Virus record (IMG/VR): IMGVR_UViG_3300030060_005952
Coordinates: 1-64,000 of that record
Origin: a virus
DNA: 64,000 nt
Strand: one strand, 5' to 3'
Made by a program: the position numbers and the translations under genes. Position 1 is the first letter of the stretch; each line of letters begins with the position of its first letter. The notes under the pieces are model-generated. The model saw nothing but the letters and a program-made list of their open reading frames with translations. It did no database searches and was not told the origin of the DNA. Shown one piece after another: positions 5,458 to 42,998 of the stretch.

Positions 5458-6026
5458 ACCCCTTCGACCAAGCATGGGGTTTGCTCAAATCGAGCAGTTT
5501 CACTAAGCCCTCGGAAGTCAGAGCAGGGGAAGCCGGAGGCTCATTAGGTGTATATCAACCATCGAAAGGTAAGGCTTGGACGCATCCATCGAATATCTAT
5601 GCCCATTACAAGGAACTCTATCCCTTTGGGAAGTTTAATGAGGACGCATTGATAAATGAGCTTATAGGGACGGATGTTCACGAATCCATACACGAGGCCA
5701 TGCATAAAGTAGGCGAAACATACGATTCAGGTCTTCATGAGGAATATGCGCCTAATTTAGCCCAGATTTTAGTCCAAGCGAGAATGCCGGGAATATACGG
5801 TGGTAAAAGAAACCAAGTGATGAGGTTAATACATGGTGATAAAGTAAGGGGAGTAGAGCCAAGACCCGACACTCAAGCCGCTATGGATTACACAAGGGAA
5901 TATGCCAATTCTTATGGTTTTAACCATCCTAAAGTAAGGAAACCAACGGAAGAGGATGGAAAGTTGTTTACGTATGGCCATACCGAACCTGAGTTCTACA
6001 CTGGATATGGAGAGGACTTAGAATGA
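5454..6026 (+). CDS. Tagged HExxH metallopeptidase-like protein
   Basis: 190 residues. Tag MNPFDQAWGLLKS at the N-terminus. At residues 76-80 there is HESIH, followed by EAMH, that is the HExxH zinc-binding/catalytic signature of gluzincin/metzincin-type metallopeptidases; the preceding segment (ALINELIGTDV) is helical as expected, and a Glu in LHEEY about 20 residues downstream could be the third ligand. The protein is short for a complete thermolysin-like enzyme but within the range of minimal peptidases. Start overlaps the previous stop (ATGA). If the tag targets it into the capsid, it would be a delivered protease or a maturation factor. The signature is seen; activity is inferred. Confidence 0.75.
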   Translation: MNPFDQAWGLLKSSSFTKPSEVRAGEAGGSLGVYQPSKGKAWTHPSNIYAHYKELYPFGKFNEDALINELIGTDVHESIHEAMHKVGETYDSGLHEEYAPNLAQILVQARMPGIYGGKRNQVMRLIHGDKVRGVEPRPDTQAAMDYTREYANSYGFNHPKVRKPTEEDGKLFTYGHTEPEFYTGYGEDLE

Positions 6027-6442
6027 ACCCCTTCGACCAAGCGTGGGTACTACTCAAGATGCCACAAGAGGCGAGGGCGTTCGCAGAGCAAGCGCACGAG
6101 GGCCAGATGTATGGTGAAGACCCGTATATGTACCATGTCGATGAGGTAGCGAATCAGTTTCAAGACCCTCTTTTGCAGAGAATAGCGTATCTGCACGACG
6201 TGGTTGAGGATGGCAAGGTTTCAGTAGAGGACATACACGATAGATTCGGAGAGGATGTAGGTCACGGTGTAGATGCAATGACTAGAAGACCAAATGAGAA
6301 CTACTTTGATTACATAGGAAGAGTAAGTGAACATCCACATGCTAGACAGGTCAAGATGGCAGACCTTACTCACAATCTGAGTGGCGACCCACCCGGAGGT
6401 CTGAGACAACGATACGAGAAAGCACTGGAGATGTTGTCATGA
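6023..6442 (+). CDS. Tagged HD-domain hydrolase, SpoT/MESH1 (ppGpp hydrolase)-like
   Basis: 139 residues: the tag MNPFDQAWVLLKM is followed immediately by an HD-type phosphohydrolase domain. Motifs match the RelA/SpoT hydrolase and MESH1 family: AHEGQMYGEDPYMYH (H38), LHDVVED (H58-D59 and E62-D63), EDIHDRFGEDV and KMADLTHNL (D114, N118). In that family these residues bind Mn and remove the 3'-pyrophosphate from (p)ppGpp or, for MESH1, act on NADPH. Length equals a single HD domain plus tag with no synthetase, TGS or ACT domains. It is coupled by ATGA overlaps to tagged genes on both sides. A capsid-delivered nucleotide hydrolase would reset host stress or NADP pools. Family assignment is strong; substrate and delivery are inference. 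Confidence 0.85.
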   Translation: MNPFDQAWVLLKMPQEARAFAEQAHEGQMYGEDPYMYHVDEVANQFQDPLLQRIAYLHDVVEDGKVSVEDIHDRFGEDVGHGVDAMTRRPNENYFDYIGRVSEHPHARQVKMADLTHNLSGDPPGGLRQRYEKALEMLS

Positions 6443-8155: not shown

Positions 8156-8506
8156 ATGAATGGGACTTGTGATTGTTGCTCTCCTATGCAACAAGCCTCT
8201 GTCGCTCTCCTTGATGGCTATTTTGAGAAGGGAAAAAAGAAGTCGAAGCCGTTTCACGGTTACAATCCTAAGAGACATCACAAGAAAGGCGGGTTGAATC
8301 AAGCAGGTCGTGACAAGTTCAAGCGAGAGACAGGTGCGAACCTGAAACCGCCAGTCACAACTAAGCCATCAAAACTCAAACCCGGAAGCAAGAAGGCGAA
8401 AAGACGCAAATCCTTCTGCGCTCGCATGAGTGGTAGTAAAGGTCCAACCAGCAAGGACGGCAAACTTACACCGAAAGGTGCGGCATTGAAGAGGTGGAAC
8501 TGCTAA
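8156..8506 (+). CDS. Lys/Cys-rich conserved virus protein (DUF6321-like)
   Basis: 116 residues with start cysteines (TCDCC), a strongly basic middle and the conserved ending KPSKLKPGSKKAKRRKSFCARMSG ... GAALKRWNC. I recognise this ending from small proteins widespread in marine tailed viruses (the family I know as DUF6321, recalled from memory). The function is unknown; two C-terminal Cys and the N-terminal CDCC could bind zinc, and the basic charge suggests binding to nucleic acid. AGGTGATT about 6 nt upstream is a good ribosome site. It opens a run of four overlapping small Cys/Lys-rich genes (8156-9190). Confidence 0.8.
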   Translation: MNGTCDCCSPMQQASVALLDGYFEKGKKKSKPFHGYNPKRHHKKGGLNQAGRDKFKRETGANLKPPVTTKPSKLKPGSKKAKRRKSFCARMSGSKGPTSKDGKLTPKGAALKRWNC

Positions 8507-8682
8507 TGGCGCTCAAAAGAAACAGTTGCTGTTGCGGTGGTAGCAAGAAGAATCCGTGTAAATGTATGGAAAAAGGAGTGATGAAGTGCTCCATGACACC
8601 ACCCCGATGTCCATGCTACAGTCTACTACATGCGCAGAGGAAGGCTGCTGATAAATTAACAAAAATGGTGTTTGTGATATGA
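8506..8682 (+). CDS. Cys-rich 58-residue protein
   Basis: 58 residues from ATG 8506, which overlaps the previous TAA (TAATG); an in-frame GTG at 8494 is less likely. Nine cysteines in the first 40 residues (NSCCCGG, NPCKCM, MKCSM, PRCPCY) look like a compact zinc- or metal-binding knot, followed by a short basic helix (LLHAQRKAADKL). No family recognised. It is translationally coupled to neighbours on both sides (ATGA with the next gene). Confidence 0.7.
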   Translation: MALKRNSCCCGGSKKNPCKCMEKGVMKCSMTPPRCPCYSLLHAQRKAADKLTKMVFVI

Positions 8683-8873
8683 TAGGTTCTTGTGGTTGTG
8701 GTCATTGCGTCGGTATGAGTGGTGCTTGGGATGCTTTGGAAAAGAAGCTCTGTCCAGAAGGAAAAGCGGCTGCAAAAAGAAAATTCAAAGTTTATCCCTC
8801 TGCCTATGCTAATGGATGGGCCGTACAGTATTGTAGAGGAAAATTCAGAGGCAAGAAGGGGAAGAAGAAATGA
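8679..8873 (+). CDS. Small Cys/Lys-rich protein with FKVYPSAYANGWA motif
   Basis: 64 residues. N-terminal CGCGHC cluster, then GAWDALEKKL (a loose echo of the A-W-x-x-L-x-K tag), then KRKFKVYPSAYANGWAVQYC and a poly-basic end. The K-F-K-V-Y-P-S-A-Y-A-N-G-x-A element is one I know from small proteins in many marine virus genomes; no function is established to my knowledge. Starts with an ATGA overlap. Its 3' end overlaps the next start by four bases (ATGA). Confidence 0.75.
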   Translation: MIGSCGCGHCVGMSGAWDALEKKLCPEGKAAAKRKFKVYPSAYANGWAVQYCRGKFRGKKGKKK

Positions 8874-9190
8874 GCGAACGCTGCACTTGCCACAATACGT
8901 TAGTTGTGAAGAACCTCAATCGTTGGTTCAAGGAGAAGTGGGTGGACGTATCGAGAAAGGACCCGAAAACAGGCAAACATCCCCCGTGTGGACGGTCAAA
9001 GGCAAAATTATCAGGAAAGGGTTACCCGAAATGCAGACCCTCAGTAAAAGTGTCGAGCAAGACTCCGAAGACATCTGGAAGCATGTCAGGTGGACAGAAA
9101 CAGGCCGCAACAAAAAGAAAAAGGGCAAAAAAGCAGGGTGTTGGTGGGAAACCGACGATTGTTAAGTCATATTGGGTTAAAATCGTATAA
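8870..9190 (+). CDS. Lys-rich conserved small virus protein (NRWFKEKWVDV type)
   Basis: 106 residues: CTCH at the N-terminus, then LNRWFKEKWVDVSRKD, HPPCGRSKAK, GYPKCRP and TPKTS, ending in a poly-basic helix and GGKPTIVKS. The order RWFKEKWVDV - PCGRS - YPKCRP - TPKT - basic helix - KPT is a recurring arrangement in marine virus genomes. Two conserved Cys (PCGR, PKCR) plus CTCH could form a zinc site. Function unknown; likely binds nucleic acid or is a structural additive. Last gene before an A/T-rich spacer, so probably the end of this operon. Confidence 0.78.
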   Translation: MSERCTCHNTLVVKNLNRWFKEKWVDVSRKDPKTGKHPPCGRSKAKLSGKGYPKCRPSVKVSSKTPKTSGSMSGGQKQAATKRKRAKKQGVGGKPTIVKSYWVKIV

Positions 9191-9330: not shown

Positions 9331-9978
9331 ATGAGGTCGGTTCACATGGATTGGAACAATGATGGTCAGGTTGATAACGCTGAACTAAGATTAACAGGTT
9401 TGATTTTAGCACAATCAGCACTAATAGGAGTAGCAGTGGGAGTCTTTGACTCAGGTATTTGGTTGCCAGCAGGTAATGGTGACCACGTTGTAAATGGCAT
9501 GACGTACGCAATGGGCGCTTTAGCAGTTCAAATTCTAGCTTATTACGTTTTCAAAATGTTCTTTGAGCAGTCAATGAAGGTTAGAGTGAATACACAAAAT
9601 CTACAACGTGATAGGGAAATCAGACTTAGAAGCATGCAAACAGAGCATGAACAGAGAAGGATAGATATGGAGCTTAGAATACAAGAGATGCAATTAGAAA
9701 GAGAACTCATGGCATTCAAGCAAAATCCTAGTCTTTTAATGCAGGAAACAATTACTGTGCCAGCTCCACCCAAACCCCAGAGTGGTGTAATGAGCTTAGG
9801 TTTGGATAGAATTGGAAATACGCAGGAAACATATACACCTCCTAGAGTTGTGCAAAATCCCGGCGTTACCACACTTTCTTTAAATCAAATGGCTGATGAT
9901 TTGGTAAAGGAAGAAAACAACAGTAATGTGCGTTTGAAGAAGGATGGAACCCCAGACCTTAGATACAAAAAGAGTTGA
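9331..9978 (+). CDS. Membrane protein with EF-hand loop and coiled coil
   Basis: 215 residues (or 210 if the start is ATG 9346, which has GAGGT 8 nt upstream). Right after the start is DWNNDGQVDNAE, a canonical EF-hand/dockerin-type calcium loop (D at 1, N at 3, D at 5, G, V, D at 9, E at 12). Two hydrophobic helices follow (about 25-45 and 58-78), then a long charged coiled coil (RDREIRLRSMQTEHEQRRIDMELRI...), a Pro-rich linker and a basic end with KDGTPDLRYKKS, a peptide related to one in the 17803 gene. Topology suggests a membrane anchor with a cytoplasmic coiled coil. Overlaps no gene but is followed immediately by a second membrane protein and a GTPase. Function unknown; may be a scaffold or receptor for the GTPase. 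Confidence 0.75.
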   Translation: MRSVHMDWNNDGQVDNAELRLTGLILAQSALIGVAVGVFDSGIWLPAGNGDHVVNGMTYAMGALAVQILAYYVFKMFFEQSMKVRVNTQNLQRDREIRLRSMQTEHEQRRIDMELRIQEMQLERELMAFKQNPSLLMQETITVPAPPKPQSGVMSLGLDRIGNTQETYTPPRVVQNPGVTTLSLNQMADDLVKEENNSNVRLKKDGTPDLRYKKS

Positions 9979-9989
9979 GGGAGCCTTCA

Positions 9990-10247
9990 ATGGGACGTAT
10001 ATTCAAAACGCCAAAGGATGATTCTGTAGAAGAAACTTTGAGAGCCATGCATTTGGCTAATACTTTTGATAATACTTACGAATGGGGCATTGGTTGGCTT
10101 AGAACAATCATCATCAGTGGCGCTACTGCTCTCGCAGTTAGTGCAATAGAAGCTAACAGCGCATACAGTCTTTGGGAATTGACTGTTGAGTGGGGATACA
10201 GACAAGTAAGCTCTTTTGGAAATTGGTTGCTTGGACTGGTGCCTTAA
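9990..10247 (+). CDS. Small membrane-associated protein
   Basis: 85 residues from ATG 9990, chosen because GAGGGAG lies 6 nt upstream (an upstream in-frame TTG at 9975 is possible). One hydrophobic segment (WLRTIIISGATALAVSAIEAN, about residues 36-56) and a second amphipathic, Trp-rich end (LWELTVEWGYRQVSSFGNWLLGLVP). Lies between the EF-hand membrane protein and the GTPase, with its stop touching the GTPase start (TAAATG). No family recognised; likely a partner of the neighbouring membrane protein. Confidence 0.7.
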   Translation: MGRIFKTPKDDSVEETLRAMHLANTFDNTYEWGIGWLRTIIISGATALAVSAIEANSAYSLWELTVEWGYRQVSSFGNWLLGLVP

Positions 10248-10961
10248 ATGAGTATGGCGGGTAGCGCCTTAGTTGGCGCAGCTATATGGGGTAGAACTCT
10301 ATACGATTCTTGGAGGCCAAGAAAAGTAGGAATTTATGGAGCATCTCTTGTTGGTAAGACCACTCTTGATAGATACATGACCACACCCGGTGAGATGGAA
10401 GATATACCGGAGGAAGAGAGAACTAGACATTACAAGTTGCTAAGTCAGTATATTTTACCAAAACCAACCGCTAAAAGAGTGAAATACGACAATCATACTA
10501 GATTAGTGCACTCTTCTGACATGGGTGGTCAAAAAGAATACTGGAATCTATGGATAGACGATATGGTAGCTAGACAGGTGGAAGCCGTTGTTTTTGTATT
10601 CGATGACCGTGCATTCAAGGGAGGTAAAGAAAGTTTAGACCAAATAGCCGGTTTCAAGTTTCTAGTAGATGTTCTTACAACTAGAAATTGGAGATACAGA
10701 AACTTAAAATCTTGGTGGAAAGGTAGAAAATACTCACCAAAAGTAATAATGCTTGTAGCTAACAAAGCAGATAGGTTCTTCGATGATACCGCAGCAAGAT
10801 TATGGCCACAAGGGAGAATAGGCGAGCACAAGATATTCGACCCGTTCAGAGATGACCTCATAAGATTACAAAAAGCTGGCATTCCAACTAAGCGCTCTTT
10901 TATGGCAACTAGGATAGGTTGGAACGTAGAACCTACTATGATAGAACTTCTGACCTCATGA
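10248..10961 (+). CDS. Small Arf/Ras-like GTPase
   Basis: 237 residues with the ordered P-loop GTPase motifs: G1 GASLVGKT (31-38), a switch I region rich in charged residues, G3 DMGGQ (91-95) within SSDMGGQKEYWNLW, and G4 NKAD (172-175) preceded by the strand VIMLVA. DxGGQ followed by an aromatic/Trp is characteristic of the Arf/SRP-receptor-beta side of the small GTPase superfamily, and the Gln is the residue needed for hydrolysis there. G5 is not clear (perhaps MATRIG). The N-terminal 20 residues are a short hydrophobic/amphipathic helix (AGSALVGAAIWGRTLY) that could attach to membrane. It follows two membrane proteins in the same operon. Eukaryote-type small GTPases exist in many archaea, but one among virion genes is unusual. 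Confidence 0.85.
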   Translation: MSMAGSALVGAAIWGRTLYDSWRPRKVGIYGASLVGKTTLDRYMTTPGEMEDIPEEERTRHYKLLSQYILPKPTAKRVKYDNHTRLVHSSDMGGQKEYWNLWIDDMVARQVEAVVFVFDDRAFKGGKESLDQIAGFKFLVDVLTTRNWRYRNLKSWWKGRKYSPKVIMLVANKADRFFDDTAARLWPQGRIGEHKIFDPFRDDLIRLQKAGIPTKRSFMATRIGWNVEPTMIELLTS

Positions 10962-10970
10962 GTGACCTTT

Positions 10971-10981
10971 TTGATGTATAA
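10971..10981 (+). promoter_or_regulatory. Possible TATA box before 10997
   Basis: TTGATGTATAAC about 20-25 nt before ATG 10997 in a 35-bp spacer with no ribosome site. Fits a leaderless archaeal start, but the box is imperfect. Confidence 0.35.
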
Positions 10982-10996
10982 CGTTGTGCGATTAAC

Positions 10997-11194
10997 ATGG
11001 CTGGCGGCGGTTCCACCACTGTTCTTGTTTCCACTGGAGGCAAAAGCAACTCCCTAAGAACCACTTTTCCTATGTGGTTAGTAGAACAATTTGAGTTGAA
11101 ATCTGGACAAAAGGTAGAATGGAAGGTCGCATCTGATGATTCTGGGGAATTATTCATCAAGGTAAAGCCACGAGGTGTCTCCGATGGTGCTTGA
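10997..11194 (+). CDS. AbrB/SpoVT-like small protein
   Basis: 65 residues. The pattern of strand - S-L-R-T-T-F-P - helix (WLVEQFEL) - K-S-G-Q-K-V-E-W - strand - G-E-L-F-I-K-V matches the swapped-hairpin AbrB/SpoVT fold common in archaeal regulators and antitoxins (typical core: R-V-T-I-P-x-x-x-x-x-x-L-x-x-G-D-x-V). It would bind DNA as a dimer and could control the surrounding operon or the promoter regions in this window. It could alternatively be a structural small protein with the same fold. It lies directly after a possible TATA box and overlaps the next start. Confidence 0.65.
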   Translation: MAGGGSTTVLVSTGGKSNSLRTTFPMWLVEQFELKSGQKVEWKVASDDSGELFIKVKPRGVSDGA

Positions 11195-12158
11195 TATCCC
11201 AGACAACATGTATCGCCAAGTGACTGGTCAAAGACTACAACCGACCCAATCACTTTCACAAATGAACGAAGCCGCAATGATTGCATTATCCCAACAAGGA
11301 AATCAGAATCTATCTCACGCTGCATTAGTAGAGCAAGCTGTTGCTCAACAGCAAATGCAAGTGATGGCACAACAGAAAAATCTAGAAGTTCCAAAAGTGA
11401 ATTTCTATCCTAGCACGCATCCTGACCCTAGAAAAGCTAGGAAGCAGGACATAAAGCAAGCTTACAAGTTACTTAAACCGACTAAGCGCTCTTTGTTAGA
11501 CCCCAGAAGATGGTTGGGTAGCAAGTATAGATACACCAAAGATACTGGTACTTGTGTTATCGATGGGTGTAATGTCAAAGAACTCATCGAGTATGACAAT
11601 CTTTACGCACGTATAACTGATGAGGAAACAGGAAGAAGCCTATGGGATATGTATTGGCAGAATCCTGTAACTGGACAAACTGAAGCTTTTGTAGCTCGTG
11701 AAGGAGTTACGAGTGGCAGAAGAATGAAGGGTACTTATTGCCCAGAGCATCTACATTTGTATCATTTACTATGTAAATGGGAAGAAGAGCAAGAAAAAGA
11801 AGATGAGATGAAACCATCTAGATTCCGCGATAAGATGAAGAAAGGAGTTAGTTTAGTTACTGTGCCCGTATCCATCATGTCTCAGAAACAAGGTCCCACT
11901 CATAGCTTAGTTCAGAAATATGAGAGTTTCTTTACTGAAATAGAGAAGGACGCAATCAAATCCAAAGGAATCAATGTCTGGCACATTCCCAATCCAGAAA
12001 CAGGAAACAACGATATAACCATGGTACAATTCGATATGAGAATGTTTCAAAAAGAATTACTTGAGTCTTCTATGCCTACACCGGCCTTCCAAGCATTTCT
12101 GAACCAACAGCCTCAAACCCAACCACCCATACCGCCCATACAGGAGGCTACACAATGA
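11184..12158 (+). CDS. Unknown protein with Cys/His zinc-binding pattern
   Basis: 324 residues from ATG 11184 (GAGGTGT 6 nt upstream; overlaps previous stop). N-terminal 90 residues are Gln/Met/Ala-rich helical. A central domain has CVIDGCN (about 126-131) and YCPEHLHLYHLLC (about 182-194), which together give a CxxxxC ... CPxH ... C zinc-finger-like set. The C-terminal region is mixed with a Pro/Gln-rich tail (QPQTQPPIPPIQEATQ). It sits between the AbrB-like protein and another Gln/Met-rich protein, all with A/T-biased codons. No family recognised. Zinc binding is inferred. Confidence 0.75.
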   Translation: MVLDIPDNMYRQVTGQRLQPTQSLSQMNEAAMIALSQQGNQNLSHAALVEQAVAQQQMQVMAQQKNLEVPKVNFYPSTHPDPRKARKQDIKQAYKLLKPTKRSLLDPRRWLGSKYRYTKDTGTCVIDGCNVKELIEYDNLYARITDEETGRSLWDMYWQNPVTGQTEAFVAREGVTSGRRMKGTYCPEHLHLYHLLCKWEEEQEKEDEMKPSRFRDKMKKGVSLVTVPVSIMSQKQGPTHSLVQKYESFFTEIEKDAIKSKGINVWHIPNPETGNNDITMVQFDMRMFQKELLESSMPTPAFQAFLNQQPQTQPPIPPIQEATQ

Positions 12159-12763
12159 GTTTGGGAATAACATCCAACAACACACAGCAAAGTGGGCTTT
12201 CCCTTGGTGTTTCTGGTATGCAAAATGGCTATCAGCAAAATAGCATGATGGGAGCTCAGAACAATTTTATGAACGGCATGATGGGAGGCATGGGAATAAA
12301 TCAACAGTATTACAACGCTCCAGTCGCGCCACCCAGTGACACTGAAATCCTAGCATCAATGCTTGGAACCATACAACCCATTGATAGATTCATCATCAGT
12401 CAAAATATGCCTATATTCGTAGAAATGCTAAGTAATATCTCTGCTTTTTCCATACTTAACATTCTAAAGAACTGCTCCTTCAAATTAGATGATGAAGGTG
12501 TTATGAAAATGGACTTACAATCACTACCTTCTGACTTACAGACTCTAAGTGCTGAAAATATAATAGCACAACTAAGTAATATGCAAAATGCATCACAACA
12601 AGCTGTTACCATGGCTCAACAAGAGCGTGATAGAATAATAGCGATTTCACAACAAAGTCTCCTTCAAGGCGCTCTGGGCGCAGCCTTGGAGGACCAAACT
12701 TTCCTTGAGAATGCCGGAAGTGCTGCAGGTGGAATGCTAAGAAGCGCTTTCGGAATGAGGTGA
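12155..12763 (+). CDS. Unknown Met/Gln/Asn-rich helical protein
   Basis: 202 residues. First 55 residues are low-complexity (GMQNGYQQNSMMGAQNNFMNGMMGGMG), like a flexible linker, then a helical domain (EILASMLGTIQPIDRFIISQ ... ISAFSILNILKNC) and a long helix with Gln/Ala/Met heptads, ending in GSAAGGMLRSAFGMR. No long membrane helix. Starts by an ATGA overlap with the gene before. It may associate with the two membrane proteins that flank this module. Function unknown. Confidence 0.75.
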   Translation: MSLGITSNNTQQSGLSLGVSGMQNGYQQNSMMGAQNNFMNGMMGGMGINQQYYNAPVAPPSDTEILASMLGTIQPIDRFIISQNMPIFVEMLSNISAFSILNILKNCSFKLDDEGVMKMDLQSLPSDLQTLSAENIIAQLSNMQNASQQAVTMAQQERDRIIAISQQSLLQGALGAALEDQTFLENAGSAAGGMLRSAFGMR

Positions 12764-12768
12764 TTAAC

Positions 12769-13023
12769 ATGATGAGTGGAGGAAGTCCTACAGATTACAT
12801 ACCAAAACCGATTGCTGAAATGACTATGCAAATGATGTCTCCAAAAAGAAGTGTAATCATTGATATGGTAATGGTACAACTGATTAGTGCAATACTACTT
12901 GGGTTAGGCATTCTATTTTTCAGAGGTAATGAATTAACTGCATCTGAAACATCCACATATATGATTGGTGTCTTTGTATCTTTTTTGCTATTAACCTCAA
13001 TTTATGGTAGAATCACTAGATAG
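12769..13023 (+). CDS. Two-helix membrane protein
   Basis: 84 residues from ATG 12769 (GAGGTGA 5 nt upstream; a GTG inside that site at 12760 is not the likely start). Two strong transmembrane segments: VIIDMVMVQLISAILLGLGILFF (about 28-50) and STYMIGVFVSFLLLTSIYG (about 61-79), separated by a short polar loop, with a basic end. The size and topology would fit a class II holin-like protein, or an anchor for the GTPase module just upstream. Nothing decides between these. Confidence 0.7.
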   Translation: MMSGGSPTDYIPKPIAEMTMQMMSPKRSVIIDMVMVQLISAILLGLGILFFRGNELTASETSTYMIGVFVSFLLLTSIYGRITR

Positions 13024-13055: not shown

Positions 13056-13733
13056 GTGGGCGAGCAGGTCACTAAGCGCTCTTGTGCATTTTGTCAACAT
13101 CCTGATAGAGCGATTTATGAAGAAGCAATGCTCAATGGTGAAATGACCGCCAAGCAATTAGATAAGGAAATGGGTTGGAGAGCAAACACTGCTGACAGAC
13201 ATTTTAGAAATCATATGGGTGAATACCATATGGCTGCAAATCCTAGTTGTGTAATTTGCTCACACCCAGACAGAGCAGAGTTTGAACATCGATATTTCAC
13301 AAATGGCTCAGAGTCAGACTCAATAGCAGCAGAGCTTGGAGTTGCAGAAAACACAGTATTTCATCACATGAAGTTTCATTTCCAACCATTAGTACAAAAA
13401 TCAGCGGCAACTGAGGTAGCCATCCAAGTTGGTAACGAAATGAATGTCTTACGTGGTAATGTGGAAAGATTAAACAGTAGGCTCAATGAATTTCTAGATG
13501 AGACTAGCATACATGAAGATGGTTTTGTTAGAGACGCAGTAAGTCTGCACAAAGAGGTTAGAGAATCTGTTAAGGATTTATTGAAAATGAACGATGCTTG
13601 GGGTACACAAAGTGATACACCACAAATAAATCAAACAATAAACGTCTTGAAAGTAGAACTTGCTAAGGAAAGTCCTGAAACTTGGAAGAGAATAAGAGAG
13701 ACACTTTTGGAAACGGAGGCTGAAGAAGTATGA
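13056..13733 (+). CDS. Protein with two CxxC-HPDR / helix-turn-helix modules
   Basis: 225 residues from GTG 13056. Two copies of a unit C-x-x-C-x-H-P-D-R-A-x(about 20)-helix-turn-helix-like segment-H (residues about 11-58: CAFCQHPDRA ... AKQLDKEMGWRANTADRHFRNH; and about 66-115: CVICSHPDRAEFE ... SIAAELGVAENTVFHHMKFHF). The repeat suggests tandem zinc-stabilised HTH DNA-binding domains. The C-terminal half is helical. Position shortly upstream of the large terminase and the DNA-binding nature make it a candidate small terminase or late regulator. It has no ribosome site, and a 32-bp spacer precedes it. Confidence 0.7.
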   Translation: MGEQVTKRSCAFCQHPDRAIYEEAMLNGEMTAKQLDKEMGWRANTADRHFRNHMGEYHMAANPSCVICSHPDRAEFEHRYFTNGSESDSIAAELGVAENTVFHHMKFHFQPLVQKSAATEVAIQVGNEMNVLRGNVERLNSRLNEFLDETSIHEDGFVRDAVSLHKEVRESVKDLLKMNDAWGTQSDTPQINQTINVLKVELAKESPETWKRIRETLLETEAEEV

Positions 13734-18553: not shown

Positions 18554-20029
18554 TTGGTCAAGGAGGACATGAAAGAGTTCGTCCTTGAGATGGATAGGGA
18601 GATGTCCAAGAAGTCCTTTAGGTATTTTTTCACTGATGTTCTTGATTTTCTCTACAATCATCATCACGAGTCTTGGGGAAAAGGATTAGATGAGAACCAA
18701 TACTACTGTGTCAAGGCTTCTCGTGACCACGGCAAATCTGTGTTTTTCATGTCTTACGCTTTGTGGTTGGCGGCTTTCAACCCCGGTACTCACATCATGA
18801 TATTCTCTCACTCCCTTGAGCAAACTCTTGAGCATATGAGATTTATTCGTAATAACATAGAGACTTCAGATGTTTTGAGAAATCTCAAACCACAGGGTAA
18901 GCCTTGGGCTAAGTCATACTTTGAGTTCACAAACGGCTCTCGTATAATGGCAAAGTCCGTTGGTGGAGCAACTCGTGGTTTCCACCCGGATGTAGTTGTC
19001 TGTGACGATATTCTCTGGGGCACAAGCGGAACTGAACTACAGAGAACCGCAGACTGGTTTTACGGTGTTCTTCTCCCAGTTCTCCACCACAGCTCTAGAC
19101 TGATGATGGTTGGAACACCATTTAGCTACAACGATTTGTACGCTGAGTTAGAGCAGAAGGAGACTTTCACAGTCGAGACTTATCCAGCCATAGACAGAGA
19201 GGGAGTCGCATTATGGCCAGAGCGTTGGGATTTGGAGGCTCTAGAACAAAGAAGACTTTCCATGCCAGCTATACAGTTCAGCCGTGAGTATCTATGCGAG
19301 CCGATTCACGATGTTGCGAGTATGTTTCCAATGGACATACTTGAGCTTGCTCGTGACAATGACTTGGTGTTACTTGAAAGAGCCGACACAGAATACAACG
19401 AAGAAGGAGAGCCGAATGGTGTATTTGGTCAACACTTCATAGGACACGACCCTGCAATATCATCTGACAAGAACGCCGATTTCACAGCAATGGTGGTTCT
19501 CAGGATATTGCCGAATGAGCCACATAAGCAGATAATACATGCTGTGCACGAGAGAGGTATGTCATCGATGGCACAAAAAAGAATGATGGTGATTCTGAAC
19601 AATAAGTTTCAACCTGATTTGATAGAGCTTGAGGGAAACAATTTCCAAAGAATGCTTGAAGCTGAAATGAGGGAGATGGCTTCCGATATGCCAATTAAAG
19701 TATTTATGACGACTAGAGCTAGAAAAGAATCTCTTTTCATGTCGCTTCTTCTAGCCTTTGAGCAAGGAAATATCAAAACCCCGTATGGTGATGAGAAGAG
19801 TCGTAAATTCACTCATCAGCTTGAGCAAGAGCTGAATAGATTTGGCATGCAGAAGAATGGTAGGCTTGAGAGCGTTGGCACCCACGATGACTTAGCTATG
19901 GGTTTGGCTCTTGCGAATTGGGCGACTAAGGAATTCAAAGGCTCAGTAGTTCTCTTAGATGACGTAATGGAGAACTTTGATGGGTGGTTTGACGGTAACT
20001 CTAAATCCGGCGGTTGGATGGTACCTTGA
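18554..20029 (+). CDS. terL: Terminase large subunit
   Basis: 491 residues, the usual size of TerL. The ATPase half has a variant Walker A SRDHGKS (K61-S62), a Walker B HPDVVVCDD (D151-D152), and the coupling motif GTPFSYND. The nuclease half has the metal-binding acidic residues in GHDPAISSDKNADF (D299), ELEGNNFQ and GTHDDLAMG (about 457). This motor threads DNA into the prohead through the portal and cuts the concatemer. The start is TTG 18554 (GGTGA 4 nt upstream); ATG 18569 after AAGGAGGAC is an alternative that would remove 5 residues. Portal lies downstream, separated by a 29-residue gene and a LAGLIDADG protein. One of the most certain calls in the window. Confidence 0.97.
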   Translation: MVKEDMKEFVLEMDREMSKKSFRYFFTDVLDFLYNHHHESWGKGLDENQYYCVKASRDHGKSVFFMSYALWLAAFNPGTHIMIFSHSLEQTLEHMRFIRNNIETSDVLRNLKPQGKPWAKSYFEFTNGSRIMAKSVGGATRGFHPDVVVCDDILWGTSGTELQRTADWFYGVLLPVLHHSSRLMMVGTPFSYNDLYAELEQKETFTVETYPAIDREGVALWPERWDLEALEQRRLSMPAIQFSREYLCEPIHDVASMFPMDILELARDNDLVLLERADTEYNEEGEPNGVFGQHFIGHDPAISSDKNADFTAMVVLRILPNEPHKQIIHAVHERGMSSMAQKRMMVILNNKFQPDLIELEGNNFQRMLEAEMREMASDMPIKVFMTTRARKESLFMSLLLAFEQGNIKTPYGDEKSRKFTHQLEQELNRFGMQKNGRLESVGTHDDLAMGLALANWATKEFKGSVVLLDDVMENFDGWFDGNSKSGGWMVP

Positions 20030-24564: not shown

Positions 24565-27500
24565 GTGCAAGAGAGCGACTATGTCATTCATCTTCGCGCT
24601 AGGGATGATTTACTCAAGAGCATAATTTCTTGTGACGATTATACTGAAGAGGCTACTGCCTATATTAATAGCCTACGAAACATAGTGAATAAGGAAATGA
24701 TACTACAGAACAACCCTGTTGATGATTTCTGCTATGAAGCCAGTACGATGTTGTTGTACAAAAAAACCATCGGTGACCTCTCAGCAGAGCTAGCGTTCGG
24801 AGAGCGTGGTGATGAGGGGTATGACTACGACAAAAAAGGCAGAATAAGCAGAAGAACTGTTGGCCCCGCATTTAATAATCACAGACATATAAATGAGATA
24901 ATCGACAATGAGAATATCGAATTAGCCTCATCGCTCTTCCCAAGGGTAGTTCCCGGTGATAGCAATTACAAACATCATCATTTTCATGAATCGATACACC
25001 CACTACGCAAGAAGAACAGCTCTACTGGTAATTCTAGAATGGTTGAGAAACTCTTGGGTTATGTCAGAAAAGACGACGATGGAAACAGCGTTGCATCCTC
25101 GCATGCTGATGCGGAGAGGGCACATGAGACACATTACGATAATTTACGTAATCCGATAATTGTAGGTCAAATTAGAAAATCAAAAAGAGCTGATATGGAT
25201 GATGAGATTACCCATGGCTTTTTGGGTAGGTTAAACACCAACGACTCAAATAGAACCATTTCTGAGCAAGTGGGTACTTCTGGTGCTTTTCAAGAGGGTC
25301 TGTATGAGAGGGCTTTCACAAAGTGGTCAAGTCAAAATCAAAAGAAGATTGACGAGGAGAAATCCCAAGGCGCCTCTGATAAAGACATCAGGGAAATGCA
25401 CCTTGAGGAAGCAGCTAAATTATGGCAGGGTAGAGATTTTGAGGAAGAGGAAATAAAATATGATGATGATGAAATCTATAGCAAGCTTTTTGCCGAAAGA
25501 GCAGGGGAGAGACAAGAGGGCTCTCGCATAGCAGAGGGCGTTCAGACAGAGTTTCCCACTGAGAGGCAACACCCTCACAGACTGGGACTCCTTGGGTATG
25601 GCCTTGGTTTGGAATGGCTCAGTCCCATTGAGAGAACCAAAGTCATCGAGCATCTTAAGGATAACAAGGGGGACACAAGCGAGAAAATAAAGCTCGATGA
25701 TGGCACTGAAATACCACTTGGAAGACTAAGGAGAAACTTTCAGAAGAGAATGACGCCTTTGTATCTCCACAGCCAAATGCCCCATAACCGGGGACAGCCC
25801 AATCTAGCTAAACACTTGGAAAGCGATGAGCTAGATGGCACAGAGTACACTGGTAGTGAAACGGAGCCAATTCGTAGCCTACTGGCAAAAATAGACCATG
25901 GGGTGCATGGGACCATGTTCGGTTCCTTATTGAACCATTATAATGAGCTACTAGAATTACAGGGCGACCAAAAACTAACAAAAATTCCCATCTATGGCGA
26001 AAAACGCACTAAGAAAATACGAGAAAAGATAGACGAGCTAATAGAAAAAGGAGTGGACGAGAAGGAGGCTCTTAGAACAATTTTGAAGGTAGAGGATTAT
26101 GCTCCCGTTAGTAATTTCACCATACCCCAGTTGAAGAGGCATCTGAAGGAGCATCCCCTCTCTGAGCTTCTAACTGACGAGGGTAAAAAGCCCCTCGCTC
26201 ATGAGAACATGAAGGCAGATGACTACATCAACCAGTTAGAGGAGATGTACAGAGATGGAATGTCATTAGCTCGTGACAGCAAGGACATAGCTAATGCCAA
26301 TGCCGTGTTCGCCAAGAGTGCGGGCCCGGACATAAGGGATGTACCCGAAGAAATAAGAAATCACTTCATAGAGAAAAATGGGACTTTGAGAGGGCTATCT
26401 GATTACTGGGCGCATGACTTGCAGGTTGGTAGCAATCCCATAGAATCCACTACTTTCTTTGACATGCTGAACAGTATCGCACCGGGTCTGTTTGGTGAAT
26501 TTGAAGCGCATCACGAATATCCAGATTTTCAATTCTTCGTACCCAGACCAGATATGTCGGGTTTCTTGGGCGCCATGCACCACGTCGTCAGGGAGAGAGG
26601 CGAGAGCTTCAGTCCTGCCGAGATAATGAGCATGCATGACCAGAGCTTGGGTGCTAGTCATGTAAATTTAGGTGACAAAAAACCAAGAAATAGGGCCAAT
26701 GGTAGCGATACCGCTCATTCACTCACACCAAGAGCCACCACCTTCTGGTCAAGGAGCAGGAACCCAAAAGCCGAAATAACCAGAGATAGTGTTGGATTTT
26801 TAAAAACTAAAGGCGAAAAAAGAGCCATACATGAAACTCAGTATCACGAGTTCGGAACCAAGACAGGTAGCACTAAATCCGAGGCTCTGGATAGCAAGAA
26901 GGCGCATAACTCCTCCGAGATAATGCGTGAGTATCTAATGTCTGGTGCCCAATACAAGTTCGGGTCAATTGACCCTAACACTGGTAGGAGGAGGCTCGGC
27001 TCGCCTGTGATGAGAATACCAGTCAATGAGATGCTTGGAGGCAAACACGGTTTTCCTTTTGAGGACGATGAAGAGGGCGGATACTCGGCTTTTGAGAAAG
27101 CTCTTTTTGCTTTAAGTGGCTCTTTGGGCATGGATGACACAAAGAGAATAGCGGAGCTTCAAAGCGAGCTGGAGGAGATTGAGCTATCAGGCGAGGATGC
27201 CTCTCAAGAGCTGATAGATGAACTGAAGGGACGCATACACATGCAACAGGCTAATTTACGAGCTAAAATTTCGGGTTTTGACAAAACCAGATTACAAGAA
27301 AAGGAAAGAAGAGCCGAAGCTGAAGAAAGAGCTAGAATGGAAGTCGCCAAGAACATAACCATACCTGCTATGCTAGAGATAAATCCTAACTTGCTTGACC
27401 CTAATAATCCTGAGCAAACCGTGGCTGACCTATCCCAAGCCATGCATGATGCTGAGTTGATTATGAAGCACATGCCTCACGGCTTCCATGGTCAAAGTAT

Positions 27501-29855: not shown

Positions 29856-31280
29856 TTGCATTTCTTCATTAGTGTGCTGTCACAAGAGCGTCTCTATGGT
29901 GTTGATGAGTCCATTGGACTCCTTAAGGCTGGCAATGACCTCGTTGTTGCAGGATACGCTAGTGTGGAGCTAGTAGACAAACAAGGCGATTTAATTACAA
30001 AGGAGGCATTGAAGGACGGATTTCGGAAGTTTATGAGCGACCCGAAATATAGAAACGTCCAACTAGCGCACTCAAATATACAGGTAGGAGAAGTAGTACC
30101 ATCATATACAGATACAGAAGGGAGGTTATGGAAAAGCGAAGTTGACGATGTCGGCATGTTTGTAGTAATACAGCTCAGAGACGACATCGAAAAAGCACGA
30201 GAAGTTGCCGCCGAAATCAGGAAAGGCAAACTAAGGGGATTCAGCATCGGAGGACAAGCATTCAAGCGAGTCAGAAAGAGCGACCCAAGACACGGCGACT
30301 ATCAAGAAATCAGCAAGCTTGAGCTTCATGAAATCACAATTTGTGAAAAAGGGATAAATCCAGAAGCGACATTTAGAATTCTAAAGCAGGAGACTGACTC
30401 AGAAAACATAGAAAAAAATAAGGTGAAAAAAATGACAGATGAAAATGACATGCAGACACAGTTGGGTGACGTTCTTACTCGACTAGAAAGTAGGCTCGAC
30501 AGTATGGAGAAAGGAATGCCTCCACAACTGAAAGAAGCCATGAAAGACAAGAAGGATGACAAGGACGACAAAGACAAGGCCATGGCAGACAAGAAGAAAG
30601 ATGAGGACAAAGATGAGAAAATGTACGCAGATGAAGCTAAGAAATCTGATGACTACTCTGATGTTATCTCATCTGAGTACCTTGACTGGATGGAGAACAC
30701 TCTAAAGAGTGCCGGAGTCGATGTCGCAGGGGCTAGGGGTCACTTTGACGACCTAGCAAAAGCTAACCTTGGCTCTACTCCTGAAGAGTTTGACCTAGAT
30801 TACGGTCAGACCCCTAACAGAGAGTCCGAAGGTGGCAAGCCTTCAACAAACGCCATAGCAAGACTAGGTGGAAAAGGAGAGAAGAAAGAGGTCAAGAAAT
30901 CTGACTTCCTAACTCCAGACCTAGTATCAGAGGCAGATGTAGAAGCCGCATACGAAGTTTACAAGGCTGCTGCAATGGAGCAGGAGTTCAGGGGTTCACT
31001 AGAATCCCGATTTGCAGACAGATTTGCTAATGAGAGAGCAGAAGAAGTCGCAAAGGCAGAAGCCGCAGCATATGATGCACGCGGTCCTCTTGACGAGGTA
31101 ATGAAGGCTCTTGGTGCTCTTAATGAGAGAATCGACAACATAGGAACAGTTGAAGCTGGCACTCCAATCGCTAAGAGCGAGGCAGAGCCAGCAGTAGAAA
31201 TACCCTCCACAGTAGACATGCACAGAATGTCATGGGATGAGGTTCACGCCCTAGCAGATAAGGCATTTAGAGGAGAGTGA
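29856..31280 (+). CDS. Prohead maturation protease (XkdF-like) fused to scaffold
   Basis: 474 residues. Residues about 30-170 match the XkdF-like (S78-type) phage serine protease: VAGYASVELVDKQGDLI, LAHSN (H72), LRGFSIGGQA (S130) and KLELHEITICEKGINPEA (E156/E159 region). From about 193 the chain turns into a charged, Lys/Asp/Glu-rich scaffold with coiled coils and ends in RMSWDEVHALADKAF. Thus protease and scaffold are one polypeptide, as in HK97-relatives with fused delta domains. The start is uncertain: TTG 29856 or the in-frame GTG 29874. The peptide GLLKAG (22-26) resembles the proposed cleavage site and would release the mature protease. The stop is just before the capsid gene. Cleaves capsid, scaffold and perhaps tagged cargo. 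Confidence 0.92.
   Translation: MHFFISVLSQERLYGVDESIGLLKAGNDLVVAGYASVELVDKQGDLITKEALKDGFRKFMSDPKYRNVQLAHSNIQVGEVVPSYTDTEGRLWKSEVDDVGMFVVIQLRDDIEKAREVAAEIRKGKLRGFSIGGQAFKRVRKSDPRHGDYQEISKLELHEITICEKGINPEATFRILKQETDSENIEKNKVKKMTDENDMQTQLGDVLTRLESRLDSMEKGMPPQLKEAMKDKKDDKDDKDKAMADKKKDEDKDEKMYADEAKKSDDYSDVISSEYLDWMENTLKSAGVDVAGARGHFDDLAKANLGSTPEEFDLDYGQTPNRESEGGKPSTNAIARLGGKGEKKEVKKSDFLTPDLVSEADVEAAYEVYKAAAMEQEFRGSLESRFADRFANERAEEVAKAEAAAYDARGPLDEVMKALGALNERIDNIGTVEAGTPIAKSEAEPAVEIPSTVDMHRMSWDEVHALADKAFRGE
30421..30426 (+). promoter_or_regulatory. Internal ribosome site for a separate scaffold protein
   Basis: AGGTGA sits 5 nt before the in-frame ATG at 30432, inside the protease-scaffold gene at the junction of its two domains. 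It is the same site and spacing used by clearly real genes here, for example the tail chaperone start at 40670. An internal start at exactly the domain boundary is unlikely by chance. Confidence 0.7.
30432..31280 (+). CDS. Scaffold protein nested in the protease gene
   Basis: 282 residues, in frame with and identical to the C-terminal part of the protease-scaffold protein, beginning MTDENDMQTQLGDV. It has an acidic/basic coiled coil (residues 10-75), a middle with TLKSAGVDV and a helix-rich end that finishes with MSWDEVHALA. Lambda Nu3, encoded inside gene C, is the classic precedent: the same gene gives a protease and, from an internal start, an excess of scaffold. Scaffold directs capsid protein assembly and is later degraded. 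The nested start is supported by its Shine-Dalgarno and position; protein data would be needed for proof. Confidence 0.65.
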   Translation: MTDENDMQTQLGDVLTRLESRLDSMEKGMPPQLKEAMKDKKDDKDDKDKAMADKKKDEDKDEKMYADEAKKSDDYSDVISSEYLDWMENTLKSAGVDVAGARGHFDDLAKANLGSTPEEFDLDYGQTPNRESEGGKPSTNAIARLGGKGEKKEVKKSDFLTPDLVSEADVEAAYEVYKAAAMEQEFRGSLESRFADRFANERAEEVAKAEAAAYDARGPLDEVMKALGALNERIDNIGTVEAGTPIAKSEAEPAVEIPSTVDMHRMSWDEVHALADKAFRGE

Positions 31281-31285
31281 GATAT

Positions 31286-32416
31286 ATGGCAAGAAATTAC
31301 GTACGAACAATAACAGACATGGAGCGCTATTACTATGGCGCCGGAAACGCAATGGGTTACTCCTACTCCGGTAGTGAGCTACTCAAGGCTGACAGCCCTA
31401 TGCTGTCCACGACTGCTGGTACATACCAAGCAATCTACGGGCGCAAGGTCTGGTCGCAACTCAACCAAGAGTTCAACGCATTCAGCATCCTACCCAAGAA
31501 GCCTTGGGACAGGTCAGGATGGAGAGTTATCACAGGCAAGCCAAACGGCGGTGCCCTACACGGCGGAGTTGCAGAAAACGCAACACTGCCAGACACTGTG
31601 AAGCCTACCTTCCAGCACGTAGCTGCAAAACCAAAGACGGTCGCACACACATTCGACATGTCCGAGACAGCTATCTTCCTAGCAGACAGAGACGATGGAT
31701 TGGGAGATATCCGCTCAGTCTTAAAGGAAGAAATGGGCAAGCACCACGCTGAGATGGTCAATAAGATGCTACTAACAGACGTTACAACTGCAGCAGCTAA
31801 CAACTTTGAGTCGCTAGACAGGGTTACCACTGGAAACACATCAATGACATCTGGCACTCACTACGACGCTGGAGATGAAGACATCTACTCCATCGACAGA
31901 AGCGCCAACACATGGGCCTTCGCAGAAGATGAGGCTAACAGCTCCAGCACAAACAGGACACTGTCCCTAGACCACTTGGACACTTTGTTCCAACAAATCT
32001 GGGAGCGCGGTGGAAACCCCAAGGTCATCCTAACAGGATACGACACTCTGATGAGACTACAGCAACTGCTACAGTCCCAGCAGAGGTTCATGGAAGAGAA
32101 GAGAGTTACCCCAACCTACAACGGTGTGAAGGGTGTCCCCGGTGTAGAGGCAGGGTTCATCGTGGCAACCTACAACGGAGTACCAATCATTCCAACCAAG
32201 GACATGCCAAAGGACAGCTTGAGCAGGATGTACTTCCTAGACACAGACTATGTGCACTTTAGCACAGCTATTCCTACGCAATACTTTGAGAGCGGAATTG
32301 AGACTGGTGACCCATTCGCCATCAACAGGCTAGGACAGGAAGGACTGTACCGAACCATGGGCGAGATATGGACCACTTTCTTTGGAGCACACGGGAGCAT
32401 TCGTGACCTAAAGTGA
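31286..32416 (+). CDS. Major capsid protein, HK97 fold
   Basis: 376 residues from ATG 31286 (GTG 31277 also in frame). The 34-residue N-terminal segment ends in GSELLKADSP; a cut after K34 would leave a mature capsid protein and follows the LLK pattern of other proteins here. After it come HK97-type features: an N-arm (TAGTYQAIYGRKVWSQLNQEFNAFSILPKKPW), E-loop region, the long spine-like helix (DIRSVLKEEMGKHHAEMVNKML) and P-domain/A-domain with PKVILTGYDTLMRLQQLLQSQQRF. Position right after the protease-scaffold is canonical. Codon choice shifts to C-ending forms (AAC, ACC, TTC), a sign of strong expression. I infer the most abundant virion protein. Confidence 0.93.
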   Translation: MARNYVRTITDMERYYYGAGNAMGYSYSGSELLKADSPMLSTTAGTYQAIYGRKVWSQLNQEFNAFSILPKKPWDRSGWRVITGKPNGGALHGGVAENATLPDTVKPTFQHVAAKPKTVAHTFDMSETAIFLADRDDGLGDIRSVLKEEMGKHHAEMVNKMLLTDVTTAAANNFESLDRVTTGNTSMTSGTHYDAGDEDIYSIDRSANTWAFAEDEANSSSTNRTLSLDHLDTLFQQIWERGGNPKVILTGYDTLMRLQQLLQSQQRFMEEKRVTPTYNGVKGVPGVEAGFIVATYNGVPIIPTKDMPKDSLSRMYFLDTDYVHFSTAIPTQYFESGIETGDPFAINRLGQEGLYRTMGEIWTTFFGAHGSIRDLK

Positions 32417-41879: not shown

Positions 41880-42994
41880 TGGCCACTGGGACGCCAATCC
41901 GTTTGGTTCGTGAGGACGGCGGTTTGATATCCCTGAATGCCACTCAGATAGCACTGTCTACTGAAAGAGAATTTGGGCCGAACGCAATGCCCTTTGCTGG
42001 TAGTGAGCGCCTCGCTATAGACTTAAACATAAACAAAGCCATAATCAGAATAGATGGTTTCTTTTCTGATGATACTCAAGCTACAGGAGCAGCCGCTGCT
42101 GAAGCTAAGATAAATTTCAATGTCAATACGGCAAAACAAAGCTTCGTCTCTTCTAGTAATTTAGGCGCTTTTTTCTCACTTACAGACTCTCCTACCCTAG
42201 TCTTAAAATCAACAAGCGGGACGCTTTCTAGTATTGTTTTTACAGAGGACAATACTGCCACTACTGGTTATAATTCATCTACTAATGTTCTAAAAGTGAA
42301 TGTTGCTAGTACAACTGCATTGCAGTTAGCTAATGCTGTTAGTTCAGCAATAAACGACCAGCACTCCTCACTCTACACGGCCTCACTATACGACGCATTG
42401 GATAGGGATGGCAATTCTCAAACTAACTCAGGCGTCTTGATTAAGCAAGTATCTAATGGAAAAGCGGGAAATAACAAGTCCACTCCTAGCTTCTCCACAG
42501 GATATTTTTTCCTCCCACCACAAGTAGAGAAATTTTCGGGAGGCAGAGATGCTGAACAGAAATCAGCAGGGGACAAGGCTCAAGATTTGTATTCCATAGT
42601 CAATAACAGTAGCAGAACGCTTAGGAAAGTAGCTTTTGACCGCATACCTGATTTTTTTGAGCTTTTTGGAAGAAAAACATCATTCTTACCTGATTTTATA
42701 ACCGGCGGCTCCGGTAGTGATTACATAGTAGGCATACAAATTCCCTACAATAGCAAAATAGAAGCCGGTAACAATGAGTACACTGCCAAGAACTTCTTCA
42801 TGCCCACTGGTCTTTTTCATAATAAAAATGACAAGGACTCTACAAATGCAAAACCCGCAGGAGTTGAGTTCGATGAGTCAAATGACTTCACGGGCATTCA
42901 AGGAGGTATTTCATCTATGGACATAATATACGATGCTGGTGAGGCCATCTATAACTACACAATGACTTTCCTACCTGCTGATGCGATGCTGTGA
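41879..42994 (+). CDS. Distal tail / baseplate protein candidate
   Basis: 371 residues. N-terminus RLVREDGGLISLNATQIALSTEREFGPNAMPFAGSERLAIDLNINKAIIRIDGFFSDD is beta-rich and like distal tail proteins (Dit or baseplate ring). The rest includes a Lys-poor Asn/Ser-rich middle and FFMPTGLFHN ... GISSMDIIYDAGEAIYNYTMTFLPAD, another beta end. Lies between tape-measure candidate and giant protein. Last codons overlap the region where the giant gene starts. Family match is by pattern and position. Confidence 0.65.
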   Translation: MATGTPIRLVREDGGLISLNATQIALSTEREFGPNAMPFAGSERLAIDLNINKAIIRIDGFFSDDTQATGAAAAEAKINFNVNTAKQSFVSSSNLGAFFSLTDSPTLVLKSTSGTLSSIVFTEDNTATTGYNSSTNVLKVNVASTTALQLANAVSSAINDQHSSLYTASLYDALDRDGNSQTNSGVLIKQVSNGKAGNNKSTPSFSTGYFFLPPQVEKFSGGRDAEQKSAGDKAQDLYSIVNNSSRTLRKVAFDRIPDFFELFGRKTSFLPDFITGGSGSDYIVGIQIPYNSKIEAGNNEYTAKNFFMPTGLFHNKNDKDSTNAKPAGVEFDESNDFTGIQGGISSMDIIYDAGEAIYNYTMTFLPADAML

Positions 42995-42998
42995 TTTT

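Follow-up and report, generated by a model that had tools for sequence, protein, structure and literature searches.

A small GTPase and its membrane-protein neighbors form a conserved core gene cassette of magroviruses with a possible role at the host membrane

The window analyzed here (the whole stretch of 64,000 bases, positions 1–64000 of the 99,596-base virus record IMGVR_UViG_3300030060_005952) carries a cassette of genes around a small GTPase of 237 amino acids (aa), encoded by gene 10248; genes are designated by the position of their first base (Table 1). Genes 9331, 9975/9990, 10248, 11175, 12155, and 12760 overlap or abut and are all transcribed rightward, in agreement with the original prediction, which was made from this DNA alone. 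For the second gene, the start that relatives conserve is 9990 (MGRIFKTP) rather than 9975. The source record is a magrovirus, i.e., a tailed virus of marine group II (MGII, Poseidoniales) archaea: it has a Druskaviridae-related capsid, its own replisome, a chaperonin, opposed gene arms, and a genome in the 90–110 kb range (compared with PMC12999244, PMC10768690, PMC5332604). Descriptions of Magrovirales, the viruses of MGII archaea, by the International Committee on Taxonomy of Viruses agree with the record in order, size, and contents (PMC12999244, PMC10768690), and its genome matches the thermosome-bearing clade of MGII viruses (PMC5332604). The opposite arm, transcribed the other way, encodes a thermosome subunit, B-family polymerase, PCNA, clamp loader, a primase-like protein, and nucleases, all named by reading the sequences; magroviruses also encode their own chaperonin. 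The predicted association of the GTPase with membrane proteins, among the virion genes of a tailed virus of archaea, was supported.

The GTPase gene is present in more than 160 viral contigs. The predicted motifs GASLVGKT, DMGGQ, and NKAD were examined in an alignment of 122 magrovirus GTPases (group A: the window and 121 further loci), in which residues G31, G36, K37, T38, T39, D91, G94, N172, K173, A174, and D175 are invariant. The P-loop reads GxxxxGKTT in 122/122 sequences and throughout group B, a second set of viruses described below; the aspartate and the second glycine of G3 are invariant in both groups, and G4 is NKAD in 122/122 sequences of group A and NK[YF]D in 81/81 of group B. 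At the G5 position MAT[RK] is invariant in group A. In the switch I loop, which was modelled at low confidence, Thr59 is invariant in group A and aligns with the RT of group B, and position 74 is T or S; both are candidate Mg ligands. Degeneracy of the G motifs had been named beforehand as a refuting test; in the 122 group A sequences they are intact. Comparison with the nearest relative (dN 0.024, dS 1.283; dN/dS about 0.02) shows that the GTPase is under strong purifying selection.

Two AlphaFold2 models of the GTPase have predicted local distance difference test (pLDDT) scores of 70 and 75. The listed top PDB matches of these models in Foldseek all belong to the Ras superfamily or to G-alpha proteins, with probability of about 1 and template-modelling scores of about 0.4–0.6, the best folds being those of Rho, Rac, and Rab. 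Among the listed top 50 matches in the viral structure library, the small GTPases come from giant viruses of eukaryotes and none is a tailed-virus protein. Judged by its intact nucleotide-binding motifs and modelled fold, the 10248 product is a genuine small GTPase of the Ras superfamily. Curated libraries match it below cut-off only: Roc at 20.1 bits (cut-off 27), small_GTP at 19.6 bits (cut-off 42.5), and PF00025 Arf at 12.2 bits (cut-off 22.3). Since no curated family reaches its cut-off, standard annotation misses this protein. A search of the annotated phage collection matched neither the GTPase nor the 11175 protein.

The two membrane proteins predicted upstream of the GTPase are supported by their relatives, with one or two membrane segments in homologues of 9331 and one in 91/120 homologues of 9990; the segment of the 9990 product is borderline in the window itself. 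Downstream, the predicted two-helix membrane protein 12760 is clearly seen in the family. The predicted zinc-binding protein corresponds to 11175, whose residues C127, C132, C189, and H192 are identical across three divergent homologues, and the description also fits 13056, a Cys-pair/helix-turn-helix (HTH) protein with two Cys-x2-Cys...HTH-like repeats. The 13056 gene, located between the cassette and the large terminase gene, is the next gene after the cassette and probably not part of it. Two elements of the original prediction are not constant. The EF-hand loop of the 9331 product is present in the window and in only 8/120 relatives and is thus not a feature of the module, so an EF-hand function for this protein was rejected; the AbrB-like gene is optional, and its Pfam match lies below cut-off. 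No lysis or defense family was found among the cassette proteins in the family libraries and PADLOC, whose models gave no match at E 0.1 for nine proteins.

Table 1. Cassette genes and landmark genes in the window.
Feature	Coordinates	Strand	Characteristics
Membrane protein, 215 aa	9331..9978	+	Strong transmembrane segment 21–39 and a weaker second one, followed by a basic, charged helical/coiled-coil region
85-aa protein (MGRIFKTP...)	9990..10247	+	Abuts the GTPase start directly; 120/120 loci
Small GTPase, 237 aa	10248..10961	+	N-terminal hydrophobic helix 2–22; G1 31–38, probable G2 Thr59, G3 91–95, G4 172–175, G5 219–222
AbrB/MazE-like protein, 65 aa, optional	10997..11194	+	Pfam MazE_antitoxin E 0.018, below cut-off; 84/121 loci
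Zinc-type protein, 327 aa	11175..12158	+	C127, C132, C189, H192; GTYCPEHLHLYHLL motif; 121/121 loci
Gln/Asn-rich, then helical protein, 202 aa	12155..12763	+	121/121 loci
87-aa protein with two membrane segments (36–54, 68–86)	12760..13023	+	121/121 loci; two transmembrane segments in 115/121
Cys-pair/HTH protein, 225 aa, candidate small terminase	13056..13733	+	Weak HTH matches; 121/121 loci
Large terminase, landmark of the virion-gene arm	18554..20029	+	phrog_38 E 2.4e-62
Major capsid protein, landmark	31277..32416	+	phrog_24667 E 3.4e-62; 33–34% identity to Druskaviridae capsids (HVTV-1/HCTV-1)

Conservation of the gene neighborhood, the other refuting test named beforehand, was found in 120–121 of 121 loci and in the second virus group. 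In group A, homologues of 9331 and 9990 occur in 120/120 informative loci, and those of 11175, 12155, 12760, 13056, and 14131 in 121/121 loci at near-constant offsets. When contigs were sampled by the capsid instead of the GTPase, 14/36 carried the GTPase gene. Among the other 22, eight were of the halovirus type and 14 were magrovirus contigs that end before the expected place, as read from coordinates. The 102-kb contig G028, considered as a possible GTPase-less magrovirus, was rejected as such, for it stops at the large terminase gene (TerL), just short of the GTPase gene. The agreement of the capsid-based sampling indicates that, among the magroviruses sampled, the cassette is a core trait. 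The related haloviruses tested have a capsid and terminase of the same type and lack the cassette. The closest isolated viruses, HVTV-1 and HCTV-1 of the Druskaviridae, share with magroviruses the capsid family and the order terminase–portal–protease–major capsid protein (MCP), but have neither the GTPase nor the cassette.

A second occurrence of the unit was reached through two contigs of a contaminated "Maricaulis" metagenome-assembled genome (MAG) that encode a distant GTPase homologue (105 and 103 bits). These led to group B, a second group of magroviruses, with 188 matching stretches in IMG/VR, of which 80 loci were fetched. Group B viruses have a bacterial-type, weakly scoring GroEL chaperonin, 33–40% GC, and long contigs mostly of 92–97 kb; in these three traits they resemble the Aoguangviridae and the clades with GroEL in PMC5332604. 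In all informative loci (72–80/72–80) their genes follow the order: protein with two transmembrane segments and a basic helix, protein with one transmembrane segment, GTPase, zinc protein, Q-rich protein. The GTPases of the two groups are homologous (hhalign E 7e-29, about 33% identity, compared with 37% for the MCP), as are the zinc proteins (profile–profile probability 93.6%, E 2e-7). In group B, the place of 9331 is taken by a 127-aa protein with a matching layout, and that of 9990 by a 72-aa single-transmembrane protein (79/79 loci). The counterpart of 12155 has a similar size and the same place; the profile comparison (E 0.006) does not establish homology. For these three pairs, with no detectable sequence homology between the groups, the agreement is one of place, size, and topology only. 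The unit lies upstream of the small (TerS) and large terminase genes in group A and just downstream of the MCP gene, between capsid and tail genes, in group B, so its cohesion is best explained by function, not by place. The cassette thus travels as a unit and belongs to the core genes, kept across two deeply diverged virus groups.

The affiliation of the GTPase within the superfamily is less simple than the "Arf-like" label it was given. In favor of the label, profile–profile comparison ranks first a set of Zn-ribbon Arf-like Asgard proteins (ZnArfL, E 2.7e-19), followed by a 214-aa Asgard family (1e-13), other Arf-like sets, Arf (9e-8), and, far behind, Ras (1e-5) and ArvA (1e-4); the ZnArfL and 214-aa sets were picked because they were top matches, and their E-values are favored by this selection. 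Against it, the family does not have the catalytic glutamine as a constant residue, does not reach the curated Arf cut-off, has Rho, Rac, and Rab as its best fold matches, and does not group with Arf in the tree. The glutamine position of DxGGQ is occupied by Q in 63, E in 47, D in 10, and H in 2 of the 122 group A sequences and by E in 81/81 of group B, with at least seven changes when mapped on the terminase tree. In the maximum-likelihood tree the viral GTPases of both groups form one long-branched clade (100/98) apart from the Asgard Arf rows, with weak deep branches and no supported cellular sister. From these sequence comparisons, we read the GTPase as a virus-specific family of old standing that lies toward the Arf-like part of the superfamily.

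The nearest cellular profile is that of Asgard GTPases of about 300 aa (L260, L261, L262, L265, L325–L327), which have an N-terminal Cys-rich, Zn-ribbon-like domain and the switch II GGQxxFWxLW. A fusion relationship, linking these proteins with the viral GTPase and its separate zinc protein, was discarded because the Asgard N-terminal domain is unrelated to the viral zinc protein. An Asgard origin, or a specific Asgard affiliation, was likewise not supported: the only strong Asgard-labelled match (L092) is a virus contig carrying the whole cassette in a contaminated MAG, as is the "Maricaulis" match (L091). The best remaining match over 226–228 Asgard genomes scores 27.6 bits, or 40.8 bits with the profile of both groups, and 299 Pseudomonadota genomes gave no GTPase match beyond mis-binned virus contigs. 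A genome contig collection that includes Poseidoniales was scanned with exact peptide patterns only. Of the mis-binned magrovirus contigs (L091, L092, L331, and L332), at least three were placed in the MAG "Maricaulis sp." IN14 and L092 in "Asgard group archaeon" HMA_bin2.96; such contigs are a trap for claims of host or of horizontal transfer. No GTPase is mentioned in PMC10160649, PMC5332604, and PMC5628999, although an earlier annotation elsewhere in the magrovirus literature is possible.

Several known systems can be compared with the viral unit. Like the Arf, SR-beta, Sar1, and Asgard Arf-like proteins, which give the best profile matches, the viral GTPase has DxGG and a W/F-rich switch II (GGQxxFWxLW), and its predicted N-terminal helix may correspond to their membrane helix; unlike them, it often has Glu or Asp in place of Gln and lacks Gly2 for myristoylation. 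The giant viruses of eukaryotes also encode Ras-superfamily GTPases, but their Rab/Ras genes are scattered and were captured from eukaryotic hosts, whereas the magrovirus GTPases, from tailed viruses of archaea, form a single family of orthologues whose dedicated partners are conserved with them. In Haloferax, the small euryarchaeal GTPase ArvA of the ArvA/ArvB/ArvC (OapABC) system carries an N-terminal amphipathic helix and is needed for vesicle budding, and loss of ArvC, a Zn-ribbon protein encoded adjacent to and downstream of ArvA, raises budding (PMC10927574). The viral unit resembles this system in several respects: a small GTPase at work in Archaea whose predicted N-terminal helix is amphipathic, a zinc protein encoded next to it, an operon-like layout, and a membrane function that in the viruses is putative. 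It differs in that the ArvA sequence compared here (L189:840-1454) has the G3 DMPGI and strong MMR_HSR1/EF-Tu matches. Orthology to ArvA was rejected, as the comparison of hidden Markov models gave E 1e-4 over 39 columns and G3 differs (one ArvA sequence was used); no cassette protein has a Pfam match to ArvB (DUF2073) or ArvC (DUF2072).

Tentatively, and by analogy, we propose that the cassette encodes a late, membrane-docked GTP switch unit that remodels the host membrane for virion release; among the functions first suggested (membrane remodelling, superinfection control, host polarity, and particle-membrane contact), we rank remodelling highest. The N-terminal hydrophobic helix, together with the 9331 and 9990 products, would hold the GTPase against the host membrane from the inside; GTP loading would alter the switch regions, so that partners could be recruited or assembled, and the zinc protein 11175 could be an effector or regulator. 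Late in infection, repeated cycles might curve or constrict the cytoplasmic membrane or open it locally, allowing virions to exit. Such a role would parallel that of ArvA in vesicle shedding by analogy, not by homology. The proposal draws on the invariant G motifs, the Ras-superfamily fold, the strong purifying selection, the conservation of the cassette in both groups, the N-terminal helix, the membrane proteins encoded directly upstream, the ArvA/ArvC precedent, and the absence of a lysis or defense family among the cassette proteins searched. Since every related virus that could be checked keeps the GTPase and the membrane proteins, they probably rely on a step at the membrane that the switch controls. 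Four points weigh against release. The better of the models is of modest confidence (pLDDT 75). The helix predicted in the window model scores as a membrane segment in 78/80 group B GTPases, but is amphipathic in group A; in the window protein it is amphipathic to moderately hydrophobic, with no clear transmembrane segment. The 9331 and 9990 products lack detectable homology to their group B counterparts, and the position of the cassette beside TerS/TerL or MCP suits an assembly role equally well.

The main rival to release, rather unlikely in our estimation, is such an assembly role: the 9331 and 9990 products would anchor proheads or the portal and terminase to the membrane, and the GTPase would time prohead initiation or the start of packaging. 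The location of the group A unit, which immediately precedes the candidate small terminase and TerL, that of the group B unit between capsid and tail genes, the conservation of the GTPase, close to that of the MCP, and the chaperonin that magroviruses carry for assembly are all consistent with a membrane platform, and T4 proheads begin at the inner membrane. Against it, the place of the unit relative to terminase and capsid differs between the groups, haloviruses of the same capsid and terminase type do without it, and we know of no tailed-virus assembly pathway that uses a small GTPase. The location within virion genes in both groups, and retention in all informative magroviruses, would also suit a unit that enters the particle and opens, or tethers it to, the membrane of the next host; this is improbable, as a GTPase requires cytoplasmic GTP and a tailed virion that lacks a membrane seldom contains integral membrane proteins.

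Control of the host, by superinfection exclusion or by redirected host GTPase signalling, polarity, or division, is no more probable than the entry role. Membrane proteins with a switch are typical of genes of this kind, and the AbrB-like gene lies inside the unit in many loci; such genes are, however, usually variable and scattered, whereas this unit is universal in informative genomes and slow-evolving, and it has no PADLOC match. Finally, the GTPase could be a nucleotide-binding scaffold, a pseudo-GTPase or a constitutively GTP-bound protein, instead of a hydrolyzing switch. The replacement of the catalytic glutamine by Glu, Asp, or His in 59/122 group A sequences and by Glu throughout group B, with repeated changes on the terminase tree, points in this direction. 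Yet in Ras a Glu here (Q61E) sustains hydrolysis, and K, T, D, and NKxD are never lost, making a scaffold very improbable.

Other features were noted beside the cassette. An N-terminal peptide of the approximate form M-N-x-F-x-x-A-W-x-x-L-L-K heads at least seven otherwise different proteins (1731, 2021, 3097, 3405, 5454, 6023, and 6439) and is internal in 7353 (aa 152) and 14131 (aa 137), giving nine matches in the window against 0.085 expected in shuffles. Among relatives, 206 tagged open reading frames (ORFs) occur in 78/121 group A loci, up to seven per locus, and none in group B. By analogy with the targeting sequences of T4 internal proteins, this looks like a sorting or particle-targeting tag. 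One tagged protein (6023–6442) matches the HD domain (HD_4, E 1.3e-5), narrowly missing the cut-off, and is possibly a virus-delivered (p)ppGpp-type hydrolase. A row of small Lys/Cys-rich proteins is encoded just upstream of the cassette, at 8156–9190; members 8679 and 8870 have a median identity of about 89% and are fused or rearranged in relatives L185 and L186. The tail-gene region contains a single ORF of 5549 aa (42981–59630). In group B, a DNA-ligase-like domain was recognized by reading in a large protein (842–1026 aa; L331:2274-4811) encoded just upstream of the head protease, and the equivalent place in the window (24565–29808) encodes a 1747-aa protein that matches a ligase family weakly (PF01068, E 0.0019).

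Archaeal cells lack peptidoglycan and offer no known targets for endolysins or holins, and the way in which tailed viruses get out of them is largely an open question. In surface ocean waters, MGII archaea and the viruses that infect them rank among the most abundant. The cassette defines a core, testable candidate machine of five genes in fixed order in two virus groups. It is quite possible, though far from assured, that this virus-specific GTPase family and its dedicated membrane and zinc partners, as part of the core genome, power release or membrane-based assembly in hosts without peptidoglycan; no other tailed virus is known to have a membrane machine driven by a small GTPase. If so, a lineage of prokaryotic viruses would retain a small GTPase together with membrane partners, an arrangement associated elsewhere with eukaryotes, Asgard archaea, and archaeal vesicle formation.

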